Of a DNA stretch of 53,045 nucleotides, positions 1 to 26,920 are shown one piece after another. The translations under genes and the position numbers were made by a program. This DNA is from Candidatus Poribacteria bacterium. GTDB lineage: Bacteria; Poribacteria; WGA-4E; WGA-3G. The notes below the pieces were generated by a model. It had not been told where the DNA came from, searched no databases, and saw nothing but the letters and a program-made list of their open reading frames with translations. The stretch's first letter is position 1, and each line of letters starts with the position of its first letter. The stretch is from NCBI GenBank assembly GCA_022827885.1, contig JAJEIP010000045.1:1-53045 (forward strand), in the 5' to 3' direction.

Positions 1-3000
1 AGGACATCTGGTTGATACATCGGGCATTCCCACATTTGTGCCCCACGTGGCACGGAAAATTGCTGAATGAATCCAAGGGCTTTCAAACCTGCTTCACGCG
101 AGGTTTTATTTCTGGTAATTCGAGCATGTTTTAAGAGTAAAAGTGCTGATTCAGCACAGGTACCGAGTGCTGTTTCACCTGCCGTTCCGAGGGAAGCGGT
201 TTTCGCGTCTGTTGGGTGCCACCGCCAACTTCCATCCGACTCTTGTGTAGCAATCCGTTGCTGTATTTCTTCCGCCATGTAAGATAATCCGGCACCGATA
301 TTGCCGATGTAAAATGGGAATTCCCATCTTAGAATGTGACACGAACCGCGTGCCGCCAACCCGCCTACTCCGGATTCCGCTATGGTGTTTTTGGCAATTT
401 CTAACACCCGTTCTTTCACGTGTTCATCCTTCGTAGCAAGATAGTCGTACCAAAGTAGCGTGCCGAAACCCGGTTCATTCTGCGGTGCCCAGTCTACACA
501 GTGCCGGGATTTTCGAGTCGCTTCATCCCATGTTGTCTGCATCAACCCGTGCCGCGAAAGTAAAACCTCATCTGCATCGCTACGGGGGGGTGGTAACGGT
601 TCAGGGGCACCGTAAGCATTATTCCAATGCGTCATGGCATCTAAGATAGAAGCATTTCCATCCACGATAATTTCGGTTTTGATGGACACCGGACGCGCCG
701 ATGTGAGTGGATACGGGATAGAAGCCTCTGTTTGGTTCTCTCGGACCCATGCTGGCACAGTCGGGACGAATACGCCGAGGGCGTGATTTTTCTGATACTC
801 ATGCCAATTGGGCGAAGCGAATACTGCAGAGAGCATCTGATTCTCACCGTCCCAGGTGTCCAGAGGATTCCAGATGATACCGACTATGGATTTCTGCATC
901 TCTACTGCCATGACTGGCACTGTGATTTTATACGGATGCGGAACGAGTCGGTTGTCGAACGGTGGAGCTGCGTCGCGTGTACTTGAGGAACGTTCATCGT
1001 TTTCCAAGAACTCGAGTCCAGGAAAAAGTGCTGCTGTTTTCTTCTCGCGATGTCGTCCTTGTCCCGCATAAAGCATCGGACCGCGAAAGGCAAGAAGTTC
1101 TCTGTTGCCATCCGTTTGCAACCGATATTCCGTTTTCACCCGCGTCGCACTTTCGCTAAGCGTCCACTGCATCTCATAAGTCCACTTAACGCCATCTACA
1201 TCTGTATCCGAACCGCTGAGGCGGACAATTGACTCTCCTTGATTGTTTCCAGCAAGTTGATAGTCTGTAGGTGTAAGTTGCGACGTTTGGCGATTTTGTG
1301 ATGCATCTAAATAGACAACCTCAGAGAGTGCCGGGCAGGTAGCTACCTGCTGGTAGTTACCACCTTTTGCAGCAAAGATTATGCAATACGCAAATCCTCC
1401 CTCAATTCCCTTTTTGTCAGAAGTGATGGTCTCTTGCTTGTTTCCATTTTTGGTTGCTGGTATTGCTTCGAGCCCACGGACGAAAACCATACGAAGGTAT
1501 CTGTTTCCCAACACGACGCTACCATTTTCCGTATAGGTATGCAGTTCTTTCACCACCTTGGCAGCAAGTTTAGGGGGCTCAGGCCGAATCACGACGCTTT
1601 CTTGGGCTGTTTGGCGTCCCTCGCCTGCTGAGGTTTGACATTTGAGCGATACGGAAATAGAGACTACAGTCGGATTTGGGAAACGGCGTGCTATCCAAAA
1701 GACAGAGACTTCTTCACCCGGTTCAATTTCTTTAATGGTTTGTCTGGGGCGTCCACGCCGTAGTTTCATACCGTTGATAGAGATTCGCGCCGTATCCGCT
1801 TTACCGAGTGGCGCGGTGCCGGTATTCCGAAGTGTACATTGCACTTCAAAATCTTCGCCTGCAGTGACAACTGCAGCTGTCGCACCTACGTTCACGATTT
1901 CTAATTTCGGTTGTGCCGCGTAAAGCGATATTTTGGCAGGAGACTTTTCGGATTCGTGCGATTCAAGGCATAAATTTGCCACATCGGAAGCCTTCGTTGA
2001 TGTGGATTGACTGAACTCCCGCAATTGCATCGTGTCATCTTTAAAGTGTAGAATAGCGATTCCACATCGTAGTTCCGGTTCGCTGTCCCTTTTCCCTTTT
2101 CGGAGGGACATCTCTTTAAATTTCCGTAACTGTGGTTTACCCCACAAAGCCCACGCGTAGTTACTATTGCCTTCTATATTGCATTCCGTCAGAAATGAGA
2201 TGACGACCTCTTTACCAGCATAAGACGTGAGTTCGATACTTTCTTCTATCCACTGGCATTCGGTTGATATGGATTCAAAACATCTTTCCGGTGCGGTTTC
2301 TAAATCTGTATTAAGAAGATCGAAAATTTCGATGGCGAACTTCACACCTCCGGGCTGTCGCTCCGCGTCGTTAAAAACAACGCCATCCCGTAATCCGGTG
2401 GAAAAATGTAGGAAGAGTTTCTCTTTTTCATCAACCTCCGGCAGTGACAGTGTGTAATCGATTTTGGCGGCTTCTATTGGGGTGGGATGTTCAAAGATAG
2501 CAGGCTTTGTCACGCCGCCGGAACGATCCATTCCGCTGACGGATGCCTGATCTGTACCGGAGACAGTACTGTGTTCAAACATCTCCACGAAGTCATAAAT
2601 TTCTTCAATAATGCCGAGCTCTAAGGGTATGGGTTCTTCCTCAACTTCGGGGGCGGTTGCTTCTGTTTCGGTGTCGCTGCCTCCATCTGCTTCCTGCGGT
2701 AGCGGCGGGGTTACCTCGCCTTTATCTGCTTCAACGTCAAAAACTGGTGCGTGCTGCGCGACAGCCGCCTCACTTTCTTGTTCAGATATTACACTCTCTG
2801 TGGCAGATTCTGTCTCATCTTCGGAAACAGGATCGGTGTCTTCTGATGCCTCAGTTGCTGTCTCATCGGACGGAGCGAGGTTAGCGGTTTCGACGGCAGG
2901 TGTTTCTGCTGTGCTGGGTGTGTCGGGAATGTCGTCCGCACTGGCGTGTGCCTCTTCGGCGATAGAGATGGGTAAGACCTCGCTGTCGGGTTGTGTTTCA

Positions 3001-3287
3001 GGGCTGTCATCATCTTCTATAGCGACAGGGGCCACATCATCTGGAGAAGGGACCTCCTCCGACTCGGACGGCGCGTCAGCGTTTTCGATTTCCGAGGGTT
3101 CAGGAACCGGGGTATCGGCGGCATCTGATGCTTCAGGTTCGGCATCGTTTATGGAATTATCGTCAGCTGCGGATTCCAATTCCGTTTGGTGTTCGTCACT
3201 CTGCCGTGCATCGGGAACTGATGGGTCGGTCTCTTCCTCCGTATTTCCGATACAAGCGGCTAAAAATTGTTGAAAACTGGCAAGCAT
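1..3287 (-). CDS. very large multidomain protein, C-terminus cut by window edge
   Basis: An open frame runs from an ATG at 3287 to base 1 with no stop seen (at least 1095 codons). There is no clear signal peptide. About residues 15-220 are an acidic linker rich in Glu, Asp, Ser and Thr. Residues about 235-400 look like a galactose-binding jelly-roll. Residues about 455-560 look like a CARDB-type beta-sandwich ('VQCTLRNTGTAPLG'). The part nearest base 1 is helical and resembles an alpha/alpha-toroid (prenyltransferase/terpene cyclase or glycosidase type: 'GTAGETALGTCAESALLLLK'). Its ATG directly abuts the TAG of the upstream GH172 gene (TAG|ATG), so the two are probably translationally coupled. 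The domain guesses come from pattern only and the function is unknown. The serine-rich plus-strand frame at 2611-3273 is its shadow. Confidence 0.85.
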   Translation of the reverse strand, partial: MLASFQQFLAACIGNTEEETDPSVPDARQSDEHQTELESAADDNSINDAEPEASDAADTPVPEPSEIENADAPSESEEVPSPDDVAPVAIEDDDSPETQPDSEVLPISIAEEAHASADDIPDTPSTAETPAVETANLAPSDETATEASEDTDPVSEDETESATESVISEQESEAAVAQHAPVFDVEADKGEVTPPLPQEADGGSDTETEATAPEVEEEPIPLELGIIEEIYDFVEMFEHSTVSGTDQASVSGMDRSGGVTKPAIFEHPTPIEAAKIDYTLSLPEVDEKEKLFLHFSTGLRDGVVFNDAERQPGGVKFAIEIFDLLNTDLETAPERCFESISTECQWIEESIELTSYAGKEVVISFLTECNIEGNSNYAWALWGKPQLRKFKEMSLRKGKRDSEPELRCGIAILHFKDDTMQLREFSQSTSTKASDVANLCLESHESEKSPAKISLYAAQPKLEIVNVGATAAVVTAGEDFEVQCTLRNTGTAPLGKADTARISINGMKLRRGRPRQTIKEIEPGEEVSVFWIARRFPNPTVVSISVSLKCQTSAGEGRQTAQESVVIRPEPPKLAAKVVKELHTYTENGSVVLGNRYLRMVFVRGLEAIPATKNGNKQETITSDKKGIEGGFAYCIIFAAKGGNYQQVATCPALSEVVYLDASQNRQTSQLTPTDYQLAGNNQGESIVRLSGSDTDVDGVKWTYEMQWTLSESATRVKTEYRLQTDGNRELLAFRGPMLYAGQGRHREKKTAALFPGLEFLENDERSSSTRDAAPPFDNRLVPHPYKITVPVMAVEMQKSIVGIIWNPLDTWDGENQMLSAVFASPNWHEYQKNHALGVFVPTVPAWVRENQTEASIPYPLTSARPVSIKTEIIVDGNASILDAMTHWNNAYGAPEPLPPPRSDADEVLLSRHGLMQTTWDEATRKSRHCVDWAPQNEPGFGTLLWYDYLATKDEHVKERVLEIAKNTIAESGVGGLAARGSCHILRWEFPFYIGNIGAGLSYMAEEIQQRIATQESDGSWRWHPTDAKTASLGTAGETALGTCAESALLLLKHARITRNKTSREAGLKALGFIQQFSVPRGAQMWECPMYQPDV

Positions 3288-4436
3288 CTATTTTTTCTCA
3301 CTCCATTTCTCTTTCATCTGCTTCATCTCGTCATTGAGCACGAGTTCCACCGAGGGGGTCTGGGCGGATGCTTCAATCTGCCATGCTCCAGATGCGTCCT
3401 TCAGCACAGGCTTGCGTTGCGCTACAGGTAGCACACCAAACGGTGTATGCGGTTCAATTTGATACCAGTATGCCACAGAGGAGGTCTCATTGCTAAGATG
3501 GTTCCCGTGTCCGTGCTCTATCGTAACCCGGATCTCTTTCTCAAAGCGGATCGGGTTTTCAATGTGATAGACGTAAGAGGTCTGGTAGCCATCGGTGTTG
3601 TTTTCGTGGATAGAAGAACCGTTGTGTGCAAAAGCGTTCTGTTGCATGCCCCAAGCTTGATTGAGGTAGTCCTCTGAACCCGTGCCGTGCAGATCTGGGG
3701 GCCACTTATAGCCGTCGACCCAGATCATATCATCACCTTCACCCCACCACGTGCCTTGAAAGTTGGTGATTGACAGGTTGCAACCGATGTAGTGTCCTCT
3801 GCCTTCGGCGGATAGAATCAGATAATTGGTGTCCCACGCGAGCCGTTCTGCGTTGATAATATTGGCTTCGGGGGTGTTCACAGTAATTTCATGTCCCCAC
3901 CCGTCACACGGGTTTTCACGATGGAATTGGGCATGGAAATAGGCAATATCATCATCGAGCGGCTCAGGGTACTGCTCATAGTCGATATAGAAGTATTGGC
4001 GGTGGGTTGTATCACCTTCGTTGACGAGTTCGATCCGTGCACTGCGGTTAAAGGGCATTTGCAAGTAGCAGTTAAGCGCGCATCCTGTATTGAACGTGTT
4101 ATTTTGGTGTGTAGAGGTAGAGAACGGAATAGAATCGTAGGAATTAACGATTTCGTTGCCGAGTCCAAAGAAGTCCCCTAACGGACATAAGACACTCGGA
4201 TGCTCCTCATCGTCCCAAAACATCCGGATCAGTACGTTTCGATACCCATTTGGCTGCGTCATCCAGATGTGATTGATACAGCCGGGTCCTTGAATATCTG
4301 CGATAACACAGGTTTCGCCGGGTTCAATATTCCATGCGTCGTTATTTCTGCCTGTTGTGTCCCATGAAGAAGCGCGTAGCGAACGTGCTTTTCTAACGCG
4401 CGTCAGCGATGACAATAATCCGTCAACATAGGTCAT
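3288..4436 (-). CDS. GH172 / DUF2961 family glycoside hydrolase
   Basis: A 382-aa protein with the DUF2961 look: an N-terminal 'ARSLRASSWDTTGRNNDAW' segment and, near residue 250, 'LHGTGSEDYLNQAW', whose acidic pair matches the conserved active-site segment of the family. DUF2961 is now CAZy family GH172, which includes difructose-anhydride and arabinofuranosidase-type enzymes. The exact substrate cannot be read. No signal peptide is visible, so it is probably cytoplasmic. A sigma-70 promoter lies at 4507-4534 and a strong hairpin sits in the leader at 4461-4480. The stop codon touches the start of the giant downstream gene. It probably acts with the sugar isomerases and galactonate dehydratase just upstream. 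Confidence 0.85.
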   Translation of the reverse strand: MTYVDGLLSSLTRVRKARSLRASSWDTTGRNNDAWNIEPGETCVIADIQGPGCINHIWMTQPNGYRNVLIRMFWDDEEHPSVLCPLGDFFGLGNEIVNSYDSIPFSTSTHQNNTFNTGCALNCYLQMPFNRSARIELVNEGDTTHRQYFYIDYEQYPEPLDDDIAYFHAQFHRENPCDGWGHEITVNTPEANIINAERLAWDTNYLILSAEGRGHYIGCNLSITNFQGTWWGEGDDMIWVDGYKWPPDLHGTGSEDYLNQAWGMQQNAFAHNGSSIHENNTDGYQTSYVYHIENPIRFEKEIRVTIEHGHGNHLSNETSSVAYWYQIEPHTPFGVLPVAQRKPVLKDASGAWQIEASAQTPSVELVLNDEMKQMKEKWSEKK

Positions 4437-6400: not shown

Positions 6401-7504
6401 TCACCAATCAACAACAGAGCCGTCATCCGGATGGTATGTCACCGGATTCTGCCAATCGTGGTCGATCTTATCTTCAAGGGCATCTTCATCGAGTTCGATG
6501 CCGAGTCCAGGACCCGTGGGCAATTCAACAAATCCATCTTTGAAGACGAAGGGGTTCTTGAGATACCCTTCACCGAGTGTCGTATGCTCCTGCATCAAGA
6601 AGTTCGGGATGGAAGCATCCAACTGAATACACGCCGCTAAAGAGATGGGACCGAGCGGATTGTGCGGTGCAATACCCCCGTAGTAGGCTTCCGCCATACC
6701 CGCGATGATACGCACTTCGTTGATACCTCCAGCGTGGCAGAGGTCGGGTTGGAGAATAGACGCTGCCTGTTTCTCTAAGATTTCACGGAACCCCCACTTT
6801 GTGAACACACGCTCTCCTGTCGCAATCGGAATGTGGGTACTCCGCGCGATTTCAGCGAGGGTGTCCACATTTTGGCACTGAATCGGCTCTTCAATGAACA
6901 TCGGTTGGTAGGGTTCCAACGCTTTAATCAGAACTTTTGCGGTTTGCGGGCTGACCGCACCGTGGAAGTCAATCGCGAGGTCAACTTCTGTACCTGCGGC
7001 TTCGCGCAACGCTGCGAAGTGATCCACGGCTCTGTCGATAAAGGCTTTGTTTTCGATAATACGTGCGGGTCTGCCGCCTGCGGGACCTGTTTTGAATGCA
7101 GTGAACCCTTGATCAATCCACTCTTTGATTCCGTCTGGGTCACCCCCACCTTTATAGAGTCTAATACGGTCGCGTGTCGGTCCACCGAAGAGTTGATAGA
7201 CAGGGACCCCCAGCGATTTCCCCGCGAGATCCCAGAGTGCCTGCTCTACACCGCTCAAGGCACTCGTCAGGATGGGACCCCCGCGATAGAATGCGTGGCG
7301 ATACATCGCTTGCCAGTGGTGGACAACGCGTCTCGGATCTTGACCGATGAGGTAGGGTGCGAGTTCGTCGACGGCTTGCGCACACGTTTTCGCACGTCCT
7401 TCCAGAATAGGCTCGCCGAGTCCGACTAACCCCTCATCCGTATGGATTTTCAGAAAGAGCCAGCGCGGTTGCACCAGAAACGTTTCCAATTTTGTTATCT
7501 TCAT
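6401..7504 (-). CDS. dgoD: D-galactonate dehydratase (enolase superfamily)
   Basis: A 367-aa protein, the normal length for DgoD, with long stretches that I recognise from the E. coli enzyme: 'FLKIHTDEGLVGLGEP', 'FYRGGPILTSALSGVEQALW', 'LAIDFHGAVSPQTAKVL', 'MFIEEPIQ', 'TGERVFTKWGF', 'ILQPDLCHAGGI' and 'APHNPLGPISLAACI'. These hold the metal ligands (Asp of DFHG, Glu of EEP, Glu of GER) and catalytic His residues of the galactonate dehydratase/mandelate racemase group. The expected reaction is D-galactonate to 2-keto-3-deoxygalactonate. A related sugar acid is possible, because this subgroup is promiscuous. It is the first gene of a three-gene minus-strand block with the two isomerases. A copy of the dispersed leader element precedes the ATG. 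Confidence 0.85.
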   Translation of the reverse strand: MKITKLETFLVQPRWLFLKIHTDEGLVGLGEPILEGRAKTCAQAVDELAPYLIGQDPRRVVHHWQAMYRHAFYRGGPILTSALSGVEQALWDLAGKSLGVPVYQLFGGPTRDRIRLYKGGGDPDGIKEWIDQGFTAFKTGPAGGRPARIIENKAFIDRAVDHFAALREAAGTEVDLAIDFHGAVSPQTAKVLIKALEPYQPMFIEEPIQCQNVDTLAEIARSTHIPIATGERVFTKWGFREILEKQAASILQPDLCHAGGINEVRIIAGMAEAYYGGIAPHNPLGPISLAACIQLDASIPNFLMQEHTTLGEGYLKNPFVFKDGFVELPTGPGLGIELDEDALEDKIDHDWQNPVTYHPDDGSVVDW

Positions 7505-7570
7505 TTTTTAATTATTCCTTGCGGTTAAATGACGCGGGTTTGGACGTTAGCGTTCCTTTCTTGAATCCGC
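7505..7570 (-). repeat. leader element copy A (before dgoD)
   Basis: Minus strand: GGAGAGCGGATTCAAGAAAG, then AAACCCGCGTC, then AACCGCAAGGAATAATTAAA running straight into the ATG at 7504. It is one of at least ten copies in the window of an 80-bp class leader that ends at a start codon. Confidence 0.7.
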
Positions 7571-20971: not shown

Positions 20972-22057
20972 ATGAATACATTCGGTCATCTTTTTCGGAT
21001 TACAACCTGGGGCGAATCCCACGGCGGAGCTGTCGGCGTTGTCGTTGACGGGTGTCCACCGCAGATCGACCTGGATATATCCACAATACAATTTGAACTG
21101 GATCGGCGGAGACCGGGGCAAAGTCGACTCACGACACCGCGTCAGGAGAGCGATGTCGTTGAGATACTTTCGGGTGTCTTTGAGGGAAAGACGCTCGGAA
21201 CGCCTATCTCCATGCTGGTGTGGAATAAAGACGCGCGTCCGTCAGCCTACGAACACCTGAAAGACCTTTACAGACCCTCACATGCCGATTTTACATATCA
21301 AGAGAAGTACGGTATCCGAAACTGGCAAGGTGGCGGTAGAGCGAGTGCACGGGAAACCATCGGACGTGTCGCGGCGGGAGCAATTGCGAAGCAAGTTTTG
21401 CGCGAAATGTCTGGAACTGAAACGCTCGCTTATGTCAAACAGATTCATACCTTGGAAGCCGAAGTCGATGCAGACATGGTGACACTTGAAGAGATAGAAG
21501 CGAGTCCTGTCCGGTGTCCCGACCCTATTGTCGGTCCGAAAATGGCGGAACGCATCGATCAGGCGCGACGGGATCTCGACTCCCTGGGGGGTATTATCGA
21601 ATCGGTTGCGCGTAATGTTCCTGTCGGACTCGGCGAACCGGTGTTCGATAAACTCAAAGCGGATTTGGCGAAAGCAATGATGTCGCTCCCCGCAACGATG
21701 GGGTTCCAAATCGGCTCCGGCTTTGGCGGTGTTACGATGACGGGGTCTGAACATAACGATCCGTTTTATCTGGAAAAGGACGACCAAACGGCGCGCATTC
21801 GGACGCGGACAAATAATTCCGGCGGCACACAAGGCGGTATTTCAAACGGCGAAAATATTCTGTTCCAAGTCGCTTTCAAACCGACAGCGACAATCGGTAA
21901 ACCGCAACAGACCGTTGATATGCACGGGAGTGAGGTGACGTTAGAAGCAAGCGGACGACACGATCCCTGTGTTTTAGTGCGAGCCCCCGCTATTGTCGAA
22001 GCGATGGCAGCACTTGTTCTCACGGATCATCTACTCCGGCATCGTTCCAGATCTTAA
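20972..22057 (+). CDS. aroC: chorismate synthase
   Basis: 361 aa, the normal length. All signatures are present: '[20 protein letters not shown]' at the N-terminus, '[17 protein letters not shown]', '[20 protein letters not shown]' followed by '[20 protein letters not shown]', '[14 protein letters not shown]', '[16 protein letters not shown]' and '[12 protein letters not shown]'. It converts EPSP to chorismate with reduced FMN in the shikimate pathway. The gene stands alone; no other aro gene is in the window. A TTTTCGCC/GGCGAAAA stem (22104-22130) lies just after it, without a U-run. Confidence 0.96.
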
Positions 22058-22157: not shown

Positions 22158-22655
22158 ATGGCTACAGGATCGGAAATCAAAGATATCGTACCTGACGAAG
22201 CGTTGGAGGTCTGTGCTCGACAGATAATTGTGGGTTACTTTCATGAGATGCTGTCCTATAAAGAGGGTGCCAAAGAGGGAACTGATATCGGATTTGTCCA
22301 TGATATGCGTGTCACCTCGCGTCGGTTACGAGCCGCGATGGACAATTTCGCTGACTGTTTTCCAAAGAGACCGTTCAAAAAACATTACAAAAAGGTAAAG
22401 GCAATAACCCGAACCATGGGAGCCGTGCGGGATCTGGATGTCCTTATCGTTCGTTTTGAAAACGAATTGGTGAATCTGACAGAAGGAGAGCGGTCGGACA
22501 TCCGAGAGGTGATTGAGCATCTACAGCGGAAACGGAAAGACGCACGAGAACCGATGCTGATGCTCTTTGAAGAACTCGAAGAAACCGGTTTTGAGACCGA
22601 GTTTTTGGAATTTTTTACAGGTTGCCAATCCACCTCACTGAACCGCAAGGTATAA
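22158..22655 (+). CDS. CHAD domain protein, N-terminal half
   Basis: 165 aa from the ATG at 22158 (TGAGGAT upstream). It contains the first of the two helical repeats of a CHAD domain: 'VHDMRVTSRRLRAAMDNF' and 'AITRTMGAVRDLDVLIVRFE', then a charged helix to 'ETEFLEFF'. The last residues (about 'GCQSTSLNRKV') are encoded by a copy of the dispersed leader element, so the native protein was cut here. The second half follows in another frame at 22663. CHAD domains bind polyphosphate-type polyanions. The two halves may still assemble. Confidence 0.8.
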   Translation: MATGSEIKDIVPDEALEVCARQIIVGYFHEMLSYKEGAKEGTDIGFVHDMRVTSRRLRAAMDNFADCFPKRPFKKHYKKVKAITRTMGAVRDLDVLIVRFENELVNLTEGERSDIREVIEHLQRKRKDAREPMLMLFEELEETGFETEFLEFFTGCQSTSLNRKV

Positions 22656-22662
22656 TTAAGAA
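22620..22662 (+). repeat. leader element copy C, inside a CHAD gene
   Basis: GCCAATCCACCTCACTGAAC then CGCAAGGTATAATTAAGAA, followed directly by ATG at 22663. It matches copies G and B but lacks the upstream GGCGG arm. It supplies the stop region of the first CHAD half and the ribosome site and ATG of the second. Confidence 0.7.
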
Positions 22663-23157
22663 ATGGCAAAGGCGCACAAGATCATCGGCGTTGCACCCGA
22701 GCGGAGTTATCAGGAGAACGCACGCATCATTCTCCCACAAAGGCTTGAAGAGGTGTATACGTGGGAACCGTTCATTCGAGACGAGACGAAGCGTGAAGAA
22801 CTCCACAATATGCGAATCTCCATTAAACGCCTCCGGTATACGATGGAACTTTTTCGCGTAGTTTATGGATTACCGACTGCTGACAGTCGGTACGCTGAGT
22901 TTCTCGCCGTTATTGTTGATTTACAAGAGATACTCGGTGATATTCACGACGCTGATGTTGTCTTGGAGGTCTTAGCGGATTATACGTCTCAATCCGGAAA
23001 CCGGAAAGGACAGGTGGATATCCCATCGGGTGTAGCAACGCTCATCGTTCGGACGCAGGAAACCCGCAAAGCGGATTATGAAACGTTTTTGGAAAAGTGG
23101 GATCAACTCTCCGCCGCAGGTTTCAAACAGGAATTGTTATCATTTTTACTATCATAG
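22663..23157 (+). CDS. CHAD domain protein, C-terminal half
   Basis: 164 aa carrying the second CHAD repeat: 'LHNMRISIKRLRYTMELF', 'FLAVIVDLQEILGDIHDADV' and the terminal helix 'FLEKWDQLSAAGFKQELL'. The early 'RIILPQRLEEVYTW' belongs to the linker of a complete CHAD domain. The frame is shifted by one relative to the first half. The only ribosome site is the AAGG of the leader element. Together the two ORFs make one full-length CHAD domain. Confidence 0.8.
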   Translation: MAKAHKIIGVAPERSYQENARIILPQRLEEVYTWEPFIRDETKREELHNMRISIKRLRYTMELFRVVYGLPTADSRYAEFLAVIVDLQEILGDIHDADVVLEVLADYTSQSGNRKGQVDIPSGVATLIVRTQETRKADYETFLEKWDQLSAAGFKQELLSFLLS

Positions 23158-23161
23158 AAAA

Positions 23162-23228
23162 ACCAAACACGCAAGCCCGTAACATTGTCCCGCAGGTCTC
23201 TGCTATAGACTTGCGCCAAGAGGGCGGA
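23162..23228 (+). repeat. hairpin repeat, copy 1
   Basis: Contains GCCCGTAACATTGTCCCGCA and a stem GCAGGTCT/AGACTTGC (23192-23199 with 23207-23214), then GAGGGCGGAT. The same unit occurs at 34135-34198 with a differently based stem. Both lie immediately upstream of a leader element copy. Confidence 0.55.
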
Positions 23229-23247
23229 TCTACGCAAGGGCATATTA

Positions 23248-23292
23248 CGTACCAAACCCGCCTCAACGAACCCCAAGGAGGGTTAAAAAATT
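23248..23292 (+). repeat. leader element copy E (before the ROK gene)
   Basis: CGTACCAAACCCGCCTCAAC then GAACCCCAAGGAGGGTTAAA ending 2 bp before the ATG at 23293. The usual CCGCAAGGAA is CCCCAAGGAGGG here, a stronger ribosome site. Confidence 0.6.
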
Positions 23293-24267
23293 ATGAGTTC
23301 TAATGTTATCGGTGTGGATATGGGGGGCACCAAGATTCTGTCTGCTGTCATTGATGCAGAAGGGAATATCTTAGCCACGGCCAAAGTCCCAACGAAAGCG
23401 GACAAAGGCGCGTCCGAAGTGATTGATCGGATCGCAGGTTCCGTCCAGAAAGCGATTGACAAATCAGGCGTTGCCGCCGATTCAATTCAAGCGATCGGCA
23501 TTGGTGCCCCGGGCCCGCTTGACCCCGCAACAGGCGTTGTCATTTTCGCACCGAATCTCGGCTGGCGGGACGTTCCACTGAAGACAGAGTTAGAAACACG
23601 CACTGGCTTCCCAACTTTTGTTGACAATGATGTGAACGTCGGAACGCTCGGTGAACACGTGTTTGGTGCGGGGCAAGGTGTTCAGAATGTCGTTGGGATT
23701 TTTGTAGGCACGGGTATTGGCGGTGGCATCATTCTAAACGGCGAATTGTTCCATGGCGCGAGTAAGACAGCCGGTGAAATCGGACATATCATCGTCAAAG
23801 CGGGCGGACCTCGCTGTGGCTGCGGTACGCGTGGCTGTTTGGAAGCAATCGCCAGCCGCACGGCGATGACCAAGCAATTCCGAAAGGCTATTCTAAAAAA
23901 GGGAAAGAAGAGTATAATTTCCGAACTCACCGGCGGTGACCTGAGTGCGATTCGGAGTGGGGTTTTGGCGAAAGCGATCCGCGCAAACGATAAGTTGACC
24001 CTCAAAATTTTTAAAAAAGTAACGAAATATCTTGGTATTGGCATTGGTTCCATTGTAAATTTCTTGAATCCGGAGATGATTGTGTTGGGTGGGGGTGTCG
24101 TTGAAGCATTGGACGATAAATTCTTGGACGATATCCGTACCGCCGCTGAAAAATACGCGCTGCCCAATACGCTGAGCGGGGTTCAAATTGTACCGGCAAA
24201 ACTGGGCGATAATTCCGCTATTCTTGGCGCAGCTGCCTTAGCACGACAGCGATCCGAAACGGCGTAG
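23293..24267 (+). CDS. ROK-family sugar kinase (glucokinase-like)
   Basis: 324 aa. The N-terminal phosphate loop is 'VIGVDMGGTKILSAVID'. The sugar site is 'FAPNLGWRDVPL', then 'TFVDNDVNVGTLGEHVFGAG' with the catalytic Asp in 'VDND'. 'GIFVGTGIGGGIILNGELF' and 'AGEIGHIIV' follow, and the ROK zinc motif is 'CGCGTRGCLEAIASRTA'. The family includes ATP-glucokinase, polyphosphate glucokinase and N-acetylmannosamine kinase. Which one applies is not decidable by eye, although the CHAD genes just upstream make a polyphosphate link conceivable. Cytoplasmic. Confidence 0.88.
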   Translation: MSSNVIGVDMGGTKILSAVIDAEGNILATAKVPTKADKGASEVIDRIAGSVQKAIDKSGVAADSIQAIGIGAPGPLDPATGVVIFAPNLGWRDVPLKTELETRTGFPTFVDNDVNVGTLGEHVFGAGQGVQNVVGIFVGTGIGGGIILNGELFHGASKTAGEIGHIIVKAGGPRCGCGTRGCLEAIASRTAMTKQFRKAILKKGKKSIISELTGGDLSAIRSGVLAKAIRANDKLTLKIFKKVTKYLGIGIGSIVNFLNPEMIVLGGGVVEALDDKFLDDIRTAAEKYALPNTLSGVQIVPAKLGDNSAILGAAALARQRSETA

Positions 24268-26049: not shown

Positions 26050-26092
26050 ATGCGAATCCCACATTATCTGAACCGCAAGGAATGTTTAAAAA
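26050..26092 (+). repeat. leader element copy D (before the SDR epimerase)
   Basis: GAATCCCACATTATCTGAAC then CGCAAGGAATGTTTAAAAA directly before the ATG at 26093. Upstream, 26024-26047 contains AATGAATATACGAAAAGGCA, a degenerate version of the GCGGATATAMGAAAGG block seen in other copies. Confidence 0.65.
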
Positions 26093-26920
26093 ATGGAAAA
26101 TCGTAGAAAAGTCCTTATCACCGGTGCATCCGGCTATATCGCCGGACGGATGCTCCCCGAATTTCGTCAACGCTACGAACTCGTCCTGTTAGACGTGAAA
26201 ACCACGAATCGGCAGGGAGAAGAGGTTGAAGGTATTCAAATTGCTGAACTCACTGACCCCAATCGAGACGCATACCGACATCATTTTGAGGGTGTTGATG
26301 CAGTCGTCCATTGTGCATTTAAGGGCGGCAGCTTTGAGAATGAACTTGCCAACGTCCAGATGGCATACAACCTTTATCAGACATGTATTGAGACCGATGT
26401 CCGGCGCGTCGTCGTCTGTAGTTCCAACCACGCCGCCGACTATTACGAGCGGCTCATCTGGGCAGATAAATGGGATGTGGTAACACCAGAGATGCGTCCG
26501 CTCTCCGATAATTTCTACGGATGGGCAAAAGAGGCGTATGAGCACCTCGGCTTTGTCTTTGCGACGGGACACGTTGAGGGTAAGAAATTACAGAACGTCC
26601 AATTGCGTATCGGTGGACCGCGCGAGACAGATATGGCGAATTCTTCAGCGGATGATTTGAAGGCGATGCACCGCGGACTCGGCGCGTATTTGAGCATCCG
26701 AGATCAGGTCCAACTCTTCGTCAAGAGCATTGAGACGGAGAACATAGAGGACGAAAACGGGATCCCGTTCCAGATCTTCTACGGCATCAGCGACAATTCG
26801 CATAAATTCTGGAGTATCGCCAATGCGCGGAAGGTGATAGGCTACGCCCCAGAGGACGACAGCCAACGCCGTTTCGCCGACCGCTTGGCAGAATTGCTAA
26901 AGCAGGCGAAAGACAAGTAG
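26093..26920 (+). CDS. NAD-dependent epimerase/dehydratase (extended SDR)
   Basis: 275 aa. The Rossmann motif 'VLITGASGYIAGRML' at residues 8-22, 'DAVVHCAFKGG', 'VVVCSSNHAADYYE' and the catalytic 'YGWAKEAYE' (YxxxK) mark an extended short-chain dehydrogenase close to uronate dehydrogenases. A likely reaction is NAD-dependent oxidation or epimerisation of a sugar or sugar acid. It is followed after 24 bp by an Ldh2-family dehydrogenase, so the two probably form a small catabolic operon. Confidence 0.85.
   Translation: MENRRKVLITGASGYIAGRMLPEFRQRYELVLLDVKTTNRQGEEVEGIQIAELTDPNRDAYRHHFEGVDAVVHCAFKGGSFENELANVQMAYNLYQTCIETDVRRVVVCSSNHAADYYERLIWADKWDVVTPEMRPLSDNFYGWAKEAYEHLGFVFATGHVEGKKLQNVQLRIGGPRETDMANSSADDLKAMHRGLGAYLSIRDQVQLFVKSIETENIEDENGIPFQIFYGISDNSHKFWSIANARKVIGYAPEDDSQRRFADRLAELLKQAKDK

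Follow-up and report, generated by a model that had tools for sequence, protein, structure and literature searches.

The two repeats of the CHAD domain are encoded by separate, conserved neighbouring genes in Poribacteria and in other phyla

Descriptions of CHAD present a polyphosphate-binding module that is built from one chain and has internal twofold symmetry. In PMC6537752 (accessible part), two four-helix bundles are arranged with pseudo-twofold symmetry around a pore. In the 53,045-nucleotide stretch of Poribacteria DNA analysed here (the window), the two CHAD bundles are encoded as two ORFs with a stop and a frame change between them rather than as a single polypeptide, and the question arises how this division came about and whether the two products could still act as one module. 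On balance, we consider it probable that the gene pair, chadN-chadC, represents an old two-gene CHAD, whose chains come together as one module that binds polyphosphate; both their association and the binding are inferred. A conserved two-gene version would divide the binding residues between two chains, and it lets one ask whether a polyphosphate channel can arise at a subunit interface and whether assembly can control binding. It further bears on the part that duplication, fusion and fission play in the origin of pseudo-symmetric folds. We found no description of a two-gene CHAD in the titles and abstract openings of the CHAD literature surveyed, most subscription papers being beyond the scope of that survey, and the words split, linker and duplication are absent from the accessible part of PMC6537752.

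The features of the locus are listed in Table 1. Both ORFs match PF05235 above its curated cut-off of 25.6 bits (82.4 bits for chadN and 58.0 bits for chadC), and the M-A-K start of chadC is invariant in 11 aligned rows. The cut in CHAD falls at the boundary of its two internal repeats. An earlier sequence-only reading of this DNA was right in assigning one CHAD repeat to each ORF, in different frames and with the motifs that it quoted; the frame differs because chadC starts 505 bases past the start of chadN. That reading had also proposed that 43 bp between the ORFs are a copy of a leader element. The copy is real, although the gap from the chadN TAA to the chadC ATG comprises only 7 bases (22656-22662) and the element, which spans approximately 22620-22665, thus reaches into chadN and makes up roughly its final dozen codons. 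It was likewise borne out that the element ends the first frame and supplies the start of the second, since the chadN stop lies inside it and AAGG and the ATG stand at its 3' end.

Table 1. Features of the CHAD locus in the window
Feature	Position	Strand	Basis
aroC (chorismate synthase), upstream neighbour	20972..22057	+	orthologue in closest relative (G008) PF01264, E 9.9e-138; relative in window locus
chadN, first CHAD repeat, 165 aa + stop	22158..22655	+	Pfam CHAD 5-132, E 6.4e-23; start aligned with relatives
Leader element, 3' part of genus-specific repeat	22620..22665 (5' limit approximate)	+	ends at chadC ATG, overlaps chadN end
chadC, second CHAD repeat, 164 aa + stop	22663..23157	+	Pfam CHAD 167-227, E 1.8e-15
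Likely divergent leader-element copy	23170..23295	+	ends at ROK ATG; by eye and alignment, with six other rows misoriented
ROK-family glucokinase, downstream neighbour	23293..24267	+	TIGR00744, 267.2 bits (cut-off 260.35)

The division is not peculiar to this genome (5.13 Mb in 148 contigs). CHAD matches were obtained in 70 of the 72 genomes of the order, two giving none, and in 62 of the 72 the fetched and inspected loci consist of a pair of neighbouring, unfused ORFs, each holding a single repeat. Four genomes carry a long fused CHAD ORF of 518-544 aa (G036, G038, G039 and G048), accompanied in G038 and G048 by an additional partial CHAD match elsewhere, and two carry a standalone fused CHAD (G060 and G061). 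Halves that are always separate had been named beforehand as an outcome that would speak against a fission, and within the order this is nearly what was found, the standalone fused CHADs of G060 and G061 being the exceptions. A few loci are irregular: in G073 (L179) the second half was found and the first half was not detected, in G049 (L177, L178) the halves lie on different contigs and a 59-aa piece of the first half precedes the second, and in G060 (L065) two tandem CHAD ORFs, along with a piece of aroC and a stretch of X, point to either a duplication or an assembly fault.

A GTDB scan with an alignment of the second half, from which 80 of 200 confirmed relatives were taken in, extended the pattern to other phyla: among those 80, loci from Armatimonadota (Chthonomonadales) and Actinomycetota (Thermoleophilia) consist of two ORFs, and four Chloroflexota loci of one. 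When searches were centred on two of these genomes outside the phylum, 92 of 201 genomes in one case and 103 of 199 in the other had a CHAD match; the two-half pattern was seen in 33 of the 92, as counted from the list of matches. Detailed inspection covered 16 pairs from Armatimonadota and 21 of the Actinomycetota/Thermoleophilia type. The split is hence old and common to the Poribacteria order, Armatimonadota and Actinomycetota. One Thermoleophilia-type genome (G096) carries a split pair in addition to a CHAD in fused form, and a plasmid search for fused CHADs returned two records, both already annotated as CHAD.

That the split is an assembly error, or that the pair is a decaying pseudogene, would be conceivable insofar as many of the genomes are many-contig metagenome assemblies, in which frameshift errors occur. 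Against this, 62 genomes of the order, among them several single-contig assemblies, and other phyla besides show the same cut, and the median dN/dS of 0.15 for the N half and 0.17 for the C half (170 Poribacteria pairs with dS between 0.1 and 1.2) is not that of a pseudogene, so that we regard this explanation as practically negligible. Both halves are under purifying selection; between the window and its closest relative found (G008), dN and dS amount to 0.016 and 0.235 for the N half and to 0.029 and 0.176 for the C half.

The geometry of the junction also bears on the possibility that recoding, by stop read-through or frameshifting, joins the halves into a single chain. In 11 of the 80 loci from the GTDB scan the halves do lie in one frame with one stop between them, as such a mechanism could use. 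However, across the 63 Poribacteria junctions (62 genomes and the fragment L092) the frame offsets 0, 1 and 2 occur in 20, 19 and 24 loci, spacers reach 396 nt and some hold several in-frame stops, and the start of the second ORF is conserved, all of which makes recoding very improbable in our view. Of the 63 loci, 29 have the halves between -4 and +10 nt apart, with TGAAATGG and TAGATATGG as forms of the tight junction, and 20 have them at least 40 nt apart, exact values depending on the start rule, which favours MA[KRT]. Outside the phylum, the halves overlap in 12 of the 16 Armatimonadota and 18 of the 21 Thermoleophilia-type pairs. This overlap, together with the AAGG and ATG that the leader element gives in the window, suggests that one message would yield both chains, each beginning at a start of its own. 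We also considered whether the halves carry a common N-terminal tag, as identity between N and C halves is 0.35-0.44 over the first 13 columns vs 0.22-0.33 over the rest; we make no such claim, because the starts were partly picked for that pattern and the linker of the fused Chloroflexota CHADs has a similar stretch.

What, then, is the role of the leader element? The 5.13-Mb genome contains its 26-base core GAACCGCAAGGNATNNTTAANAAATG 15 times without mismatch and a 25-base core, allowing up to two mismatches, 124 times, with reversed controls giving 0 in both cases. The repeat ends in AACCGCAAGG.ATAATTAAAAAATG, the ATG of which is, in 14 of the 15 exact copies, the start of an ORF 164 aa or longer; within the window, copies of this end lie at 7501-7529 (-), 22638-22666 (+) and 26068-26096 (+). 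At the same tolerance of two mismatches, the 25-base core was found in 37 of the 38 genomes of the genus (reversed control 0 in every genome), with 94-148 copies in seven relatives and 0-45 in the remaining 30. Among the 34 genomes of the order outside the genus, 2 contained it, with one match each. The genus-specific repeat looks like a spreading translation-start element. An Rfam scan of 13 loci matched tRNA alone. At the split junctions of the order, the core CGCAAGG precedes the second start by no more than 40 nt in 18 of 62 cases, and the core or the 3' end is present in 23 of 62, a count that also takes ends with up to four mismatches to the 19-base 3' end; all 23 belong to the genus of the window (38 genomes). 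Some junctions of the genus hold tandem element copies over 200-400 nt, and the spacers of L047, L053, L054 and L055 (216-377 nt) contain repeated copies of two sequence types.

It had been proposed that the split was made by one repeat insertion, that is, that the element interrupted a fused CHAD gene in this lineage. The window invites such a view, as the element covers the junction, takes in the stop of the first frame and runs up to the ATG of the second. The locus of G008 is 95.7% identical over 3069 columns, and its sole gap of more than 8 bases, 25 bp at 22622-22646, lies inside the element; even there, the last 19 bases of the element are exactly retained, including the stop codon of the first half, so that G008 does not represent an element-free site. 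Nevertheless, the halves remain separate in G008, where they share a frame and are divided by a TAA, and the 25 bp are therefore dispensable. The comparison with sister genomes, from which an unsplit gene without the element had been expected, gave the opposite picture: core and 3' end are missing at 39 of the 62 split junctions, including all 24 outside the genus and 15 of the 38 inside it. Since split pairs outside the genus do without it, the element is dispensable for the split as well, and with the core largely bound to one genus and the split present in other phyla, we consider an origin by insertion of the element hardly credible. The element would rather have been inserted later, into a junction that was already split. 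The junction repeat appears in this light as a passenger and not as the cause of the split, which corrects a tempting story.

The history of the split state itself was addressed with a concatenated maximum likelihood tree of 86 CHADs (322 columns, drawn midpoint-rooted). One clade (support 84/94, below the level starred by the program) unites 47 split forms, ten standalone fused CHADs and G061, and stands apart from the long and other fused CHADs. The ten standalone fused CHADs (four from Chloroflexota, four from Armatimonadota and two from the outer Poribacteria G082 and G083) differ from the split pairs, with which they share this clade, in being one ORF of 325-407 aa. They nest with the split forms of Armatimonadota (99/97), and G061 with those of Poribacteria (100/99). 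Three changes between split and fused states are needed on this tree. A single clade of all split forms is rejected (p 2.8e-6, or 0.004 with G061 added), and the state has thus changed more than once; with a root among the other fused CHADs, the tree reads as one fission followed by two re-fusions. Pfam was run on eight of the long and other fused CHADs that lie outside this clade; none has CYTH, and one, a long fused CHAD at 829-2379 of L024 (G054), has Ppx/GppA domain III on its N-terminal side.

One could alternatively imagine that the split is ancestral, in that a duplicated half-domain gene was kept as two genes and the fused CHADs arose by later fusions. The rejection of a single split clade fits this reading, and so does a tree of separate halves (70 rows) with its root placed between the N and C halves, in which split halves are basal in both subtrees and two fused groups nest among them. 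However, the halves tree comprises only 151 columns with weak deep branches, and AU tests on it rejected neither an all-split or all-fused clade (p 0.08-0.28) nor a clade of split and standalone fused forms (p 0.34 and 0.41). Moreover, a root among the long fused CHADs requires three changes as well, and fused CHADs were narrowly sampled. We thus think an ancestral split unlikely, albeit worth serious consideration. It is, with a little more doubt still, a tentative thought that the two-gene CHAD is a surviving pre-fusion state, in which half-CHAD genes were duplicated in tandem and fused later, more than once; if true, living bacteria would preserve a stage on the way from a half-domain duplication to a pseudo-symmetric fold in a single chain.

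With regard to the protein, the pair of G008 was modelled with AlphaFold2 from 15 rows as one chain, the stop TAA being read as Gln, by which the halves are tethered in the model, and a pLDDT of 86.1 and a pTM of 0.83 were reached. This tethered model matches CtCHAD 6qv7 with Z 29.0 (rmsd 2.9 over 314) and 6qva, which contains polyphosphate, with Z 28.5, followed by RcCHAD 6qv5 (Z 24.1), PptA of Streptomyces (6rn5, Z 19.4) and the CYTH/TTM-CHAD protein ygiF of E. coli (5a60, Z 15.2). Two four-helix bundles with pseudo-twofold symmetry are accordingly part of the prediction for the tethered relative. Foldseek, used for the tethered model too, ranks CHAD structures first for the N half of the window alone, with an E value of only 0.0025. 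CtCHAD and RcCHAD (PF05235; PMC6537752, accessible part) share the sequence family, the predicted fold and the polyphosphate-contacting residues with the window pair; PptA, a single chain, and ygiF share the CHAD fold, PptA being more distant. Unlike the pair in the window, where the bundles are separate ORFs, the solved CHADs matched are single chains. In the two-gene CHAD, each chain would form one four-helix bundle, the two would pair into the pseudo-twofold fold, and the polyphosphate channel would lie between them.

It could also be that the halves form no heteromeric CHAD, each acting alone or as a homodimer. The N half of the window is predicted to fold by itself (pLDDT 88); furthermore, the repeats are homologous, and profiles begun from either half came to match both. 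On the other hand, the halves are adjacent in 62 genomes of the order and overlap in the majority of pairs inspected outside the phylum, and each half retains polyphosphate residues of its own, so that we hold this alternative to be improbable.

These residues can be placed by alignment with CtCHAD, in which alanine at H253, R256 and R260, and additionally at R296 and R418/Y419, weakens polyphosphate binding (PMC6537752, accessible part). H48, R51, R55 and R91 of chadN correspond to H253, R256, R260 and R296, and R58 and Y59 of chadC to R418 and Y419. In the split pairs, H253 is kept in 97/99, R256 in 99/99, R260 in 98/99 and R296 in 99/99 N halves, and R418 and Y419 both in 100/100 C halves. 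Judged from these alignments, the known polyphosphate-contacting residues are divided over both halves. The proposal of a two-chain version of a single-chain domain thereby gains from the conservation of the pair, the purifying selection and the residues in both halves, while the pairing of the chains is a probable reading of the same sequences. A complex of chadN and chadC may hold polyphosphate for polyphosphate enzymes, namely PPK2, which is present in the genome, and the products of CYTH and Ppx genes that lie nearby in some lineages. PPK2 was found in 70 of the 72 genomes of the order and PPK1 in none of them; five of the 84 genomes of the phylum have PPK1, all from the same class but outside the order. 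It counts against a polyphosphate role that granules in Poribacteria have been interpreted as carbon stores and not as polyphosphate (PMC5087111, accessible part).

The neighbours of the pair in the window, aroC and the ROK gene, do not speak for a polyphosphate role. The ROK protein was considered as a polyphosphate glucokinase and reached only 48.2 bits, far under the cut-off of 250. Pfam detected no CYTH in chadN or chadC, nor does a CYTH gene adjoin the pair, which hence differs from the ygiF type with its N-terminal CYTH in the same protein, and no Ppx relative was found in the fetched stretch of the window. Within the short fetched stretches of the 62 split loci of the order, a ROK relative is present in 58, aroC in 35, a CYTH relative in 6 (mostly in family f4), as a gene of its own upstream of the pair, and Ppx in 2. 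In L149 (f4), the pair is directly preceded by a separate CYTH gene (Pfam E 3.9e-20) and followed by ROK; there (1335-4059) and in L145, L146 and L147, CYTH, chadN, chadC and ROK stand in a row, so that what a CYTH-CHAD protein combines is spread over three genes. A Ppx/GppA gene follows the pair in L142 (f3), 2 of the 16 Armatimonadota pairs have a Ppx-like ORF downstream, and 11 of the 21 Thermoleophilia-type pairs have one upstream, nearly adjacent by coordinates in four. The presence of CYTH or Ppx near the pair fits a polyphosphate role in those lineages.
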